Shown piece after piece: positions 35,210-38,977 of a DNA stretch of 64,000 bases. How positions within the stretch are numbered: the stretch's first letter is position 1; every line of letters starts with the position of its first letter. The notes beneath the pieces were generated by a model. It had not been told where the DNA came from. It was given only the letters and a program-made list of their open reading frames with translations, and did no database searches. Location: contig NZ_FNPZ01000004.1 in NCBI RefSeq assembly GCF_900107435.1, forward strand, positions 372,001 through 436,000. Direction: 5' to 3'. This DNA comes from Herbiconiux ginsengi. Lineage in GTDB: Bacteria; Actinomycetota; Actinomycetes; Actinomycetales; Microbacteriaceae. The position numbers and the translations under genes are program-made.

Positions 35210-37111
35210 TCAGCCGAGCGGGCCGTACGCCGCCGGTGTGGTGCGTGCGTGCGTGGCCTGCTCGAAGGAGTAGGTCAGACCGATCAGCGTGCCCTCGGCG
35301 TAGTCGTGACCCAGGAACTCCAGGTTCACGCCCGCTCCCGCGGTGGTGCCGTCGGCCTCGATCGACTGTCCCATCGGAACGGTCACCGCGGGCATCCCGG
35401 TGTTCGGGCTGAGCCGCAGGTTGGTGCTCTGCGTGCCGTAGGGGTTCGCCGAGGGGTAGACCAGCGCATCCAGGTCCTGCTCGTCCATCATCGAGGTGAC
35501 GAGGGCGTTGCCGGTGGCGATGGCCGTGGTGTGGCTTCCCGTCGGTCCGGCCCAGGCCTGGTAGGTCTCCTCGGTGATCTTGTCGCGCGAGCTGTAGGTG
35601 CCCTGCCGCGACGGCACGTACTTACCGGAGTCGAGGATGCCCTGGAGCGACCGGGCGGTGACATCCGGGTCGAGGTGCGCCGCGATGTAGCCGTTCAGGT
35701 CGTGCTTGAACTCGTTGGTGCTGCCGCTGGGCTCACCGAGCACCTTCGAGAAATCGGCGGGCGGGGTGACCTCCACCACGGTCGCGCCCTGCGCCTCGAG
35801 GGTGGCCTTCGCGTCGTTCCACAGCCGCACGGTGGTCGGGTTCGAACCGATCATCGACGCGACGTAGCCGATCCGCGCGCCCTGCAGGGCTGTCGGGTCG
35901 AGGTAGGAGGTGTAGGAGTCGGGCACCTTGCCTTCCTGCTCCGCGGTGATCGGGTCGTTGGGGTCGACTCCCACGACCGCGTCGAGGGCCACGGCCGCAT
36001 CCGTCACGCTGCGGGCGAGCGGGCCGCCGGTGTCCTGACTGAGCGCGAGCGGGATGATGCCGTCACGGCTGGTCAGGCCGACCGTGGGGCGGATGCCGAC
36101 GAGCTGGTTGTACGACGAGGGAACGCGGATCGACCCACCCGTGTCGGTGCCGAAGCCGATGCCGGCCAGGTTCGCCGAGATCGCCGCGCCGGTTCCTCCG
36201 CTCGAACCTCCTGCGGTCTTCGTGGTGTCGTAGGGGCTCGCCACCAGGGTGCTGGTGCCCGCGGGCTGGAAGGCCGAGAACTCCGAGACGAAGCCGAAGG
36301 CGAACTCGTCGAGGCTGGCCTTGGCCAGGATGACGGCGCCCTCGTCGCGGAGTCCCGTGATCATGGCCGCGTCGGTCGTGGTCTGGTTGTCGTCCCAGCA
36401 TCCGCATCCGCCGGTGGTCGGCATGTCGGCGGTGTCGTAGTTGTCCTTCACCGCGATCGGCACGCCGAGCAGCGGGCTCGTCATGCCGTCCGCGGCGCGC
36501 TCGGCGTCGGCGTCGGCCGCCGCCTGCAGCGCGACGTCGCTCGTGGTGATGATCGAGTTGAGGGCGCGTGCGCCGTCGCCCGGGGCCACCACCGTGCGGT
36601 CGTAGGCCGCGATGCGGTCGAGGTAGTCCTGTGTGATGGCCACCGAGGTGGTGACGCCGGCGTTCATCGCGGCCTGCATGTCGATGGCCGACGCCTCGAT
36701 CAGGTCGAACGGGCCGTCGTCGTAGATCATCCGCTCCGAGACCGCGGCGAGGTCGGCCACGGTGAGGACACCGTCGGCGTCCACATCGGCCGTCGCCACG
36801 CTCGCCCAGTCGGGCGACGAGGTCGTGGCGCCGAGGTGGTCGCCGACGACGGCGAGGTCGTCTTTCGTGACCTGCTGATCGCCCGTGAGGTCGAGGGCCG
36901 TGTAGTACGGCGCCAGGAAGGCGGCGGTGGTCGCGGGTACCGGGTCGGCGTTGGCCGGTGCGGCGGCGAGGGCGCCGGCGGCGACGGTCGCCAGAATGCC
37001 CACCGCGGCTGCGGCGGTGGTGCGGGTGCGGGTGCGTCGGGTCACGATCGTCCTCTGCGGGCTGGTGGGGCGCTGGTCGGGCTGGTGCGCGCTGGTTCGT
37101 CGGATGCTCAT
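35210..37111 (-). CDS. Secreted amidase with N-terminal dockerin domain
   Basis: The 633-residue protein starts with a basic region (TRRTRTR) and a hydrophobic signal peptide ending near ANADP (residue 57). Residues 70-130 form a type I dockerin. There are two calcium loops: D74-x-T76-x-D78-x-Q80-x-T82-xx-D85, and D109-x-D111-x-D113-x-V115-x-T117-xx-D120, each followed by a helix. The amidase signature domain follows. Lys222 is in GVPIAVKDNYDT, Ser303/304 in GGSSGG and the nucleophile Ser327 in GTDTGGSIRVP, so the Ser-Ser-Lys triad is complete. It hydrolyses an amide bond outside the cell; the substrate is unknown. Its ATG overlaps the cohesin gene stop (ATGA). The dockerin would dock onto that cohesin. 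Confidence 0.93.
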   Translation of the reverse strand: MSIRRTSAHQPDQRPTSPQRTIVTRRTRTRTTAAAAVGILATVAAGALAAAPANADPVPATTAAFLAPYYTALDLTGDQQVTKDDLAVVGDHLGATTSSPDWASVATADVDADGVLTVADLAAVSERMIYDDGPFDLIEASAIDMQAAMNAGVTTSVAITQDYLDRIAAYDRTVVAPGDGARALNSIITTSDVALQAAADADAERAADGMTSPLLGVPIAVKDNYDTADMPTTGGCGCWDDNQTTTDAAMITGLRDEGAVILAKASLDEFAFGFVSEFSAFQPAGTSTLVASPYDTTKTAGGSSGGTGAAISANLAGIGFGTDTGGSIRVPSSYNQLVGIRPTVGLTSRDGIIPLALSQDTGGPLARSVTDAAVALDAVVGVDPNDPITAEQEGKVPDSYTSYLDPTALQGARIGYVASMIGSNPTTVRLWNDAKATLEAQGATVVEVTPPADFSKVLGEPSGSTNEFKHDLNGYIAAHLDPDVTARSLQGILDSGKYVPSRQGTYSSRDKITEETYQAWAGPTGSHTTAIATGNALVTSMMDEQDLDALVYPSANPYGTQSTNLRLSPNTGMPAVTVPMGQSIEADGTTAGAGVNLEFLGHDYAEGTLIGLTYSFEQATHARTTPAAYGPLG

Positions 37112-37854
37112 CGGGAACCCGCCGTCCGGCGACGGAGGAGCACGAGCACGCCGGCGGCGACGGCCGCGGCTGCGACGATGAGCAGCGCACCGATGCCGAA
37201 GCCGGTGGCGGCGAGCGATCCGCTGCCCGATCCGGCCGTGGTGGTCGAGGCGGGGTCGGTGTTGCCGCCCGGGGTGGTCGTCGCGGTGGGCGACGGCGTG
37301 GGCGTGGGCGTCTCGCTCGCGAGCGGCGCGATGGTCACGGCCGCGGTCGCGGCATCCGTGAGCGTCGTGGTCTCGCCGGCCGGGTCGACCAGGGTGACGG
37401 ATGCGGCGTTGAGCGCGGCCGATCCGCTTCCGCTGGCCAGTGCGGTCAGCTGCAGCGACGCGGCGACGTCGCCGCCGAGGCTGGGTGAGGTGCCGAGGCG
37501 GGAGTGCACGAGCGTGACGCTGCCCGCCGACTCCTTCACCGTGTCGTAGCCGCCGGCCGGGGCCGTCGCGCTGTCGGCGACGTAGCTGAACAGGGCGGGG
37601 TCGTAGCTGAGGGTGACCTCGTAGGCGTAGACGTCGGCGGCGCCGACGAGGCCGATGCCGACGTCGACGGTGTCGCCCACCGTGACCGAGGGGGTCGCGG
37701 TCAGTGCCACCGATGCGGTGGTCGGGGCGGCGAGGGCAGGGCTCGCGCCGAGCAGGGACAGGCCGAGGGCGACGGCGCCGGTCAGCACCGCTGTTCGCAA
37801 TCGCCGCCGGTGCGGGGTGTGGTCGTGCAGGGGCACGCGGTCCTTCTTTCTCAT
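37108..37854 (-). CDS. Surface-anchored cohesin-domain protein with LAATG sorting motif
   Basis: From the ATG at 37854 the product has 248 residues (GTG at 37863 or 37836 also possible; AAGGA precedes the latter). In the numbering from 37863 a signal peptide ends near SPALAAP (residue 46). Residues 50-178 form a cohesin-like beta-sandwich: SVALTATPSVTVGDTVDV, YAYEVTLSYDPALFSYV, GSVTLVHSRLG and SAALNAASVTLVD. A Pro/Thr/Ser-rich spacer (180-215) follows. Then come SLAATGF (LAATG at 217-221), a hydrophobic helix and the basic tail RRRTAGSR, the layout of a sortase substrate. LAXTG is the signal recognised by class E sortases. It would anchor the dockerin-bearing amidase encoded by the overlapping downstream gene. 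Confidence 0.88.
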   Translation of the reverse strand: MRKKDRVPLHDHTPHRRRLRTAVLTGAVALGLSLLGASPALAAPTTASVALTATPSVTVGDTVDVGIGLVGAADVYAYEVTLSYDPALFSYVADSATAPAGGYDTVKESAGSVTLVHSRLGTSPSLGGDVAASLQLTALASGSGSAALNAASVTLVDPAGETTTLTDAATAAVTIAPLASETPTPTPSPTATTTPGGNTDPASTTTAGSGSGSLAATGFGIGALLIVAAAAVAAGVLVLLRRRTAGSR

Positions 37855-38069
37855 CGGTTTCACACCTCGCGCCGGCGCGTGTTCAGGCGCGCCGAAGGAG
37901 CCCCGGTGGTCGGGTCGCTGATCCGGAACAGGGCGGCCGAAGGAGAAGGCGGGCGCCGCACAGCGACCTGAGAGGCGATGCGAGATGTGGCTCAGGTAGG
38001 CTCACGCTAGCGGGCAGAAGACACCCGAACGGTTTCCGCTGTGTTTCTCCGGCGTTACAGAAATCGCGA

Positions 38070-38114: not shown

Positions 38115-38168
38115 GCTCCCCAAAGGGGGGTATCGGGCCGGAGGAGTGCCCTGCTGCACCAGAACGGC

Positions 38169-38201
38169 CGATTGCGGGCCGGGGTGTCCGGCCCGCAATC
38201 G
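38169..38201 (-). terminator. Perfect GC-rich hairpin ending the ABC exporter operon
   Basis: CGATTGCGGGCCGG (38169-38182) pairs perfectly with CCGGCCCGCAATCG (38188-38201) around a five-base loop. It begins 12 bases after the permease stop codon on the minus strand. Confidence 0.8.
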
Positions 38202-38212
38202 CCCGCTCGGGG

Positions 38213-38977
38213 TCAGCTGATCTTGCGACGGTAGATCACGATGGCGAACCCGTAGGCCACCACGAGGATGCCGACGAGCCAGGCCAGCGCGATCCCGATG
38301 TCGCTGCCCACCGGCTGCTCGGCGAAGAGTGCCCGGATGGTGTTCACGATCGACGTCACGGGCTGGTTCTCGGCGAACCAGGCCACCGGCCCCGGCATCG
38401 AGTCGGTGGGCACGAAGGCAGAACTGATGAAGGGCAGGAAGATGAGCGGATAGCTGAACGCACTCGCGCCGTCGACCGACTTCGCCGAGAGCCCGGCGAT
38501 CACGGCGATCCATGTCAGCGCGAGGGTGAACAGGATGAGTATGCCGGCCACGGCGAGCCAGGCGCCGAGGGAGGCGCCGGTGCGGAACCCCAGGATCAGC
38601 GCGACACCGGTGACGATGGTGATCGACACGATGTTCGCCACCAGCGAGGTGAGCACGTGCGCCCAGAGCACACTCGACCGCGCGATCGGCATCGACTGGA
38701 AGCGTTCGAAGATGCCGCCCTGCAAATCGAGGAACAGCCGATAAGAGGTGTAGGCCACGCCCGACGCGATCGTGATGAGCAGGATGCCCGGGAGCATGTA
38801 GTTCACGTACGACTCGTCGGATCCCGTCTGGATCGCGCCGCCCAAGACGTAGACGAACAGCAGCATCAGCGCCACCGGGGTGACCGCGGTGGTGATGATG
38901 GTGTCGGGGCTGCGCAGGATGTGCCGGAGCGATCGGCCGGTCAGGACGCCGGTGTCGCCGAGGACGTGGGTGGTCAT
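38213..38977 (-). CDS. ABC-2 type permease of a drug exporter (DrrB-like)
   Basis: The 254-residue protein has six membrane helices and the ABC-2 motifs of daunorubicin-type exporters: SLRHILRSPDTIITTAVTPVALMLLFVYVLGGAI, NYMLPGILLITIASGVAYTSYRLFLDLQGGIFERFQSMPIARSSVL (the conserved F-x-R-x-x-SMPI loop) and PLIFLPFISSAFVPTDSMPG. It forms the membrane part of an exporter with the ATPase encoded just upstream (one base gap region). Substrates of this family are hydrophobic antibiotics or lipids. The whole unit is under a PadR-type regulator. Confidence 0.93.
   Translation of the reverse strand: MTTHVLGDTGVLTGRSLRHILRSPDTIITTAVTPVALMLLFVYVLGGAIQTGSDESYVNYMLPGILLITIASGVAYTSYRLFLDLQGGIFERFQSMPIARSSVLWAHVLTSLVANIVSITIVTGVALILGFRTGASLGAWLAVAGILILFTLALTWIAVIAGLSAKSVDGASAFSYPLIFLPFISSAFVPTDSMPGPVAWFAENQPVTSIVNTIRALFAEQPVGSDIGIALAWLVGILVVAYGFAIVIYRRKIS

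Follow-up and report, generated by a model that had tools for sequence, protein, structure and literature searches.

A cohesin and a dockerin-bearing amidase encoded side by side in Herbiconiux ginsengi: a putative one-to-one coupling at the cell surface

The role of lone cohesins and dockerins in bacteria without a cellulosome is an old question, and two adjoining genes of the actinomycete Herbiconiux ginsengi raise it again: why should such a bacterium encode a cohesin next to an amidase that carries a dockerin? The genes lie in a stretch of 64,000 nucleotides (RefSeq assembly GCF_900107435.1, contig NZ_FNPZ01000004.1, positions 372,001 to 436,000), hereafter called the window, whose own numbering is used throughout. 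Two overlapping open reading frames are found on its minus strand, at 37108-37863 (251 aa) and at 35210-37111 (633 aa). A sequence-only reading of the window had placed both genes at these positions, and both are indeed present. Because the two halves of the pair and the kind of enzyme can all be named here, the question of the lone modules comes down to one binding experiment.

The first protein is laid out as a signal peptide, a cohesin domain, a Pro/Thr-rich linker, an LAATG motif, a hydrophobic stretch and a terminal RRR (the signal peptides of both proteins were read by eye). Its cohesin domain (residues 57-172; 37348-37695, minus strand) matches PF00963 at E 8.2e-10, with 39.5 bits against a curated cut-off of 24.1. 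Residues 44-180, folded by AlphaFold2 with 67 relatives, gave a model with a predicted local distance difference test (pLDDT) value of 96.0 and a predicted template modelling (pTM) score of 0.88. When this model was compared with the PDB by Foldseek, the best match was the Clostridium perfringens cohesin 2jh2 (E 2.1e-9). The top six matches were all cohesins of C. perfringens, followed by cellulosomal cohesins and the non-cellulosomal cohesin 2xdh of Archaeoglobus fulgidus; ranks 1-32 consist throughout of cohesins or cohesin complexes, and other sandwich proteins (integrin, YcnI, adhesin) start at rank 33, with E 6e-5 and worse. A sequence search of the PDB returned four NagJ cohesin sequences as the sole chains below E 0.2. 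The cohesin-like domain that had been read in the upstream protein is thus borne out by the PF00963 score together with the predicted fold. By profile searches the protein has one cohesin domain, and no carbohydrate-binding module was matched.

The second protein consists of a signal peptide, a dockerin and an amidase domain. Its dockerin (residues 65-132; 36716-36919, minus strand) matches PF00404 over residues 74-127 (E 3.1e-5; 24.5 bits against a curated cut-off of 22.9). The sequence-only reading had named a profile search without a match to these modules as a refutation; the search found both PF00963 and PF00404. Two EF-hand-like calcium-loop motifs are seen, D74-D85 and D109-D120, and alignment with 31 relatives shows positions 1, 3, 5 and 12 of the loops (D, T/D, D and D) to be invariant or at least 90% conserved in the 32 sequences. 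The sequence-only reading had placed a two-loop type I dockerin at exactly these residues, and the sequence and the PF00404 match agree with it.

The remainder of the enzyme is an amidase-signature catalytic domain (35213-36715, minus strand), which matches PF01425 at E 5.4e-77, above the curated cut-off; the earlier statement that the enzyme is not a polysaccharide hydrolase therefore stands. The nearest solved structures by sequence are those of the peptide amidase (Pam) of Stenotrophomonas maltophilia, 5ac3 (8.3e-69) and 1m21 (7.3e-68; see also 1m22), and the fold of a relative, locus L146, is likewise nearest to peptide amidase structures. The match to Pam spans the amidase domain only (from residue 133 of the query), and the solved chain has no dockerin. 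The segments GGSSGG and TDTGGS align with 5ac3. The putative triad residues K222, S303 and S327, assigned from the residues that we take to form the Lys-cisSer-Ser triad of Pam, are invariant in 18 aligned sequences. The enzyme thus resembles a peptide amidase as far as its sequence can tell. The amidase models of NCBIfam match far below their cut-offs (the best, PRK08137, with 336 bits against 534), and therefore no substrate can be named. A separate feature of this domain is a Cys-x-Cys segment (GGCGCW, window 36395-36412) shortly past the active-site lysine; both cysteines are invariant in 18 sequences and are lost in several Nocardioides members, and they might form a disulfide or a metal site.

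How might the cohesin protein be held at the surface? Its LAATG motif (residues 217-221; 37201-37215, minus strand) is followed by the hydrophobic stretch and the basic tail RRR, so that all parts of an LAXTG-type sorting signal are present, as had been claimed for this C-terminus. The source genome (G000) has two sortase-domain genes. One of them, on contig G000:C2, belongs to class E, scoring 241.7 bits with NF033747 against a cut-off of 160. Class E sortases recognise LAXTG (PMC5148588), and the class E sortase of this genome would fit the LAATG signal of the cohesin protein.

Taken together, these features have a joint best explanation, to which we assign a probability of about 0.7. Both proteins would be secreted, the cohesin protein would be fixed to the cell wall at LAATG by the class E sortase, and the amidase would dock on that cohesin through its N-terminal two-loop dockerin, probably with calcium. 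The result would be a single peptide-amidase-like enzyme tethered to the surface of the cell through a one-to-one coupling of its own. Computed support comes from the domains, the predicted cohesin fold, the sorting motif and the gene for the sortase, and also from the co-occurrence described below, which is nearly perfect; we infer the dockerin-cohesin binding, its need for calcium, the action of the sortase and the target of the enzyme.

The source genome (4.85 Mb, 12 contigs) contains one Pfam cohesin and one Pfam dockerin, and a family-specific profile found no second dockerin in it at E up to 10, with 67 of 67 candidates scored. The single cohesin and single dockerin of the sequence-only reading are confirmed by these searches, and a multi-enzyme cellulosome was rejected, the one dockerin found being that of the amidase. 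A scaffold on which the cohesin gathers several enzymes, after the manner of a small cellulosome, could still be proposed from two other genomes of the family, G009 and G367, each of which encodes another dockerin protein, some 1,240-1,250 aa long, and to that extent the private pairing does not extend to every relative. Of these proteins, however, L079 has a weak match to the dockerin profile of the family and L078 has none, and with one dockerin in the source genome and one cohesin domain in the window protein we regard such a scaffold as very improbable. The two proteins deserve mention in their own right: they are encoded at L078:4357-8112 (G009; 1,250 aa) and L079:2966-6685 (G367; 1,239 aa), in genomes that also have the pair, with the dockerin in mid-protein and, in L078, an LAATG-like sorting signal at the end. 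It is possible that they are second dockerin clients.

Among 16 genomes of the genus (source included), the cohesin occurs in 5 and an amidase ortholog, 76-100% identical, in the same 5; the best-scoring amidase of the other 11 is only 38-40% identical, and no amidase ortholog without the pair was seen in the 16. In 398 genomes of the family, with Pfam matches counted at E 0.001 or better, a cohesin was found in 21 (20 over the cut-off) and a dockerin in 26 (25 over the cut-off); 19 genomes have both and 370 have neither (Fisher p 1e-24). On inspection, both cohesin-only genomes (G035, G348) carry the dockerin-amidase, and 6 of the 7 dockerin-only genomes have a cohesin beside the dockerin. 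In G010 the two halves sit at the ends of two different contigs, and because of this their adjacency is not shown there.

The order was searched with profiles built from the family's own loci: 376 genomes, source included, with the best 11 cohesin and best 16 dockerin candidates scored per genome. A cohesin at E 0.001 or better was found in 21 genomes, 18 of them with a strong match (4.1e-32 or better). Dockerins (E 1.6e-20 or better) were found in 18 genomes, and these are exactly the genomes with a strong cohesin. The members of each pair lie on the same contig and the same strand, the gap between their matches never exceeding about 1.8 kb, and each genome has one strong match of either kind among the candidates scored; G851 has in addition a second, weak cohesin (5e-4). 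Since the profiles were made from related loci, this result is a test of co-occurrence and not an independent discovery. Across 396 genomes of the phylum, a Pfam cohesin was found only in the source and in one other genus, with three genomes. As an observation apart, the loci L080, L081 and L082 (G777, G609 and G769; genomes of about 2 Mb) hold a cohesin in open frames of 2,131-2,209 aa.

A scan of GTDB contigs with a dockerin-amidase alignment gave 357 confirmed relatives, of which the best 80 were taken and the other 277 left out. These 80 loci come from Curtobacterium, Microbacterium, Leifsonia, Herbiconiux, Mycetocola, Agreia and Frigoribacterium of the Microbacteriaceae and, further, from Cellulosimicrobium, Cellulomonas, Oerskovia, Georgenia, Oceanitalea, Demequina, Nocardioides, Aeromicrobium and an Actinomyces metagenome-assembled genome. 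The dockerin is present in all 80, partly by construction because the query held a dockerin. The cohesin was not in the query, and it was found at the same locus, beside the amidase or fused to it, in 76 of the 80; in the other four (L092, L094, L108 and L141) the contig ends 64-448 bases upstream of the dockerin. At L104:2521-3351 (Demequina sediminis) the cohesin gene lies in two frames, as if frame-shifted, and the dockerin-amidase frame is open. The most distant pair, L069:4862-6457 (G145), has a cohesin protein of 531 aa that scores 18.3 bits with Pfam, below the cut-off, and has extra sequence, a membrane-like end and no L-x-x-T-G; it precedes an amidase 45% identical to that of the window.

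The system is patchy and rare overall, and one half is nearly always accompanied by the other. A chance match was rejected on the scores, the fold and the co-occurrence. The proposal to scan related actinomycetes for co-conserved pairs has thus been carried out, and cohesin and amidase proved to be very strongly linked; what had been taken as a peculiarity of one organism is a conserved, patchy system, which does look private within the source genome.

The arrangement of the pair was scored at 108 loci, the 80 named above and 28 from family genomes. A pair is held by 101 of them. Five have no cohesin and a dockerin-amidase that stands where the contig stops (L077, L092, L094, L108 and L141), and two lack the dockerin-amidase (L051 and L073); L077 and L141 belong to the same genome, of which L051 is the cohesin half. 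After removal of 9 duplicates, and with the window excluded, 92 pairs were left. The cohesin gene precedes the amidase gene in 77 and follows it in 6. The remaining pairs are single chains: 6, all from Nocardioides, in the order dockerin-amidase-cohesin, and 3 in the order cohesin-dockerin-amidase. As judged by eye, L142 among the latter looks like a clean fusion without a sorting motif, L064 still has the sorting signal within the chain, together with a second stretch that resembles a signal peptide, and L114 looks frame-shifted in the linker and is a doubtful fusion. A quick maximum-likelihood tree was made from the dockerin and amidase sequences of the 92 pairs; on it the four architectures require 6 changes, where the least possible number is 3. 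The pair has thus outlasted both a reversal of order and fusion in either direction. The two modules also diverge in parallel, with a correlation r of 0.59 in a mirror-tree comparison, the largest r in 1,000 permutations being 0.15; for either module against the amidase, r is 0.60 and 0.67.

These results bear on whether the modules bind each other at all. The dockerin could simply stabilise the enzyme while the cohesin binds something else, and the two genes could merely travel together. The binding is, after all, something that we infer, and residues 10-11 of the calcium loops, which we take to be positions important for recognition, differ between the two loops (K-D in one, V-A in the other), so that the binding mode is not readable from them. 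On the other hand, of the 376 genomes of the order, the 18 with a strong cohesin match are the very ones with the dockerin, the pair has been kept where gene order was reversed and where the genes were fused, whichever came first, and the searches of the source genome turned up neither a further cohesin nor a further dockerin. It seems improbable, therefore, that the two modules are strangers to each other.

Several points weigh against the tethering of the amidase to the wall as proposed above. First, the docking is itself putative, and the dockerin scores just above the PF00404 cut-off. Secondly, co-occurrence is not complete: three genomes of the order (G992, G1031 and G1120) have weak cohesin matches (about 1e-4) without a dockerin, and G274 of the family has a Pfam dockerin match for which no cohesin was found. 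The match in G274 (G274:C97:13020-13187) falls within a frame of 86 aa at the end of its contig, no dockerin-amidase being present, and is the one exception in the family. Thirdly, the partial r between cohesin and dockerin falls to 0.32 after allowing for the amidase, a modest and suggestive value given without a significance test. Fourthly, the Nocardioides fusion L146 (dockerin-amidase-cohesin, 719 aa), folded by AlphaFold2 with its own relatives (26 rows), reached a pLDDT of 74.3 and a pTM of 0.66, with block means of 74-93 in the dockerin stretch (residues 11-60) and mostly 57-90 in the cohesin stretch; this model includes no measure of the relative placement of dockerin and cohesin and says nothing firm on docking. 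Finally, all nine members from Nocardioides and Aeromicrobium (Nocardioidaceae) are without a sorting motif, six of them being single chains, and therefore anchoring cannot be the sole purpose.

The last point suggests another use of the same binding. The modules might form mainly a latch or an assembly device, in which binding within a chain changes the amidase or binding between chains builds oligomers, with the sorting signal limited to certain lineages. Neither the six Nocardioides chains nor L142 has a sorting motif, and in such fusions a tether would be superfluous because both modules are already in one chain; a fused Nocardioides chain could either close on itself as a latch or be joined head to tail with others. 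The role conserved across several actinomycete families would then be a calcium-controlled latch that controls or multimerises one extracellular amidase, wall anchoring being an addition of some lineages. We hold this to be unlikely. An L-x-x-T-G motif is present in 77 of the 83 non-redundant two-gene pairs of other genomes (L069, L104, L136, L137, L152 and L154 lack it), and single chains account for only 9 of the 92 pairs, L114 among them being doubtful and L064 keeping the sorting motif inside. Fixing of the amidase to the wall, as the sequence-only reading had it, remains the likely use in most lineages but is not the conserved core.

How does the proposed wall-held coupling compare with known systems? 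Its nearest relatives, by sequence (2o4e, 2jh2, 2w1n, 2ozn) and by fold (2jh2, 2w1n, 2vo8, 2o4e), are the non-cellulosomal cohesins of C. perfringens (NagJ/GH84C and a GH33 protein). Those modules, named X82, join secreted glycosidases to each other. In C. perfringens the cohesin is carried on a glycoside hydrolase, whereas here a protein that bears a sorting signal carries it by itself, and the putative partner is an amidase. In the archaeon A. fulgidus, whose non-cellulosomal cohesin 2xdh matches by fold at E 5e-6, a cohesin and a dockerin are encoded near each other and the organism has very few of them; we know of no amidase partner of that cohesin. Peer et al. reportedly described non-cellulosomal cohesin and dockerin modules in 2009. 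Cohesins and dockerins outside cellulosomes are thus already known, and the proposed one-to-one coupling of an amidase would be a new version. In cellulosomes, scaffoldins with a wall signal (nonSLH, e.g. LPxTG) are described (PMC11557425). Such scaffoldins likewise place a cohesin on a wall-signal protein, but here there are one cohesin, one dockerin enzyme, no matched carbohydrate-binding module and no glycan hydrolase.

In the open-licence literature, as represented by titles, the openings of abstracts and some passages, no description of a cohesin-amidase pair in an actinomycete was found. Searches that found no cohesin or dockerin are reported for the genome of Cellulosimicrobium cellulans F16 (PMC4562250) and for three Cellulomonas genomes (PMC3544764). 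Other strains and species of these genera carry the pair, and the published negatives are not thereby wrong. A coupling of this kind, small, one-to-one and taken from high-GC Gram-positive bacteria, would have practical use for display as well.

The starts of the two genes require comment. For the cohesin gene, the start may be ATG 37854 or GTG 37836 instead of GTG 37863, which opens the 251-aa frame. The ATGA overlap noted earlier is real in that the two frames do overlap, but a comparison of Shine-Dalgarno matches indicates that its ATG need not be the start of the amidase. In the window this ATG has no Shine-Dalgarno match of at least 4 bases, and an in-frame GTG at 37045, 66 bases downstream, is preceded by AGGA; the later GTG seems the better start of the two. 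Among 86 cohesin-first loci, duplicates included, 82 have frames that join at ATGA or GTGA. Ribosome-binding sites were scored at 85 cohesin-first loci: the overlap start is preceded by a Shine-Dalgarno match of 4-7 bases in 59, lacks such a match in 23 and is itself missing in 3, while in 69 of the 85 a start further on in the same frame has a match of 4-6 bases. Translational coupling is therefore likely in many cohesin-first loci, to judge from the start sites.

The neighbours of the pair in the window encode a LuxR-type regulator and a histidine kinase to one side, and an ABC transporter to the other. Among the 108 loci, all four neighbours adjoin the pair only in G001 (L050), which is a close sister. 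A search of the other 107 loci found no regulator and, of the kinase, no more than a match of 106 residues at two of them; ABC-transporter matches are scattered. Because the neighbours of the window are not kept at other loci, the cohesin-amidase pair is regarded as a stand-alone unit. At the end of the upstream ABC-transporter gene lies a 30-base inverted repeat (38153-38217; 83% complementary, with a 5-base spacer), which may be a terminator.

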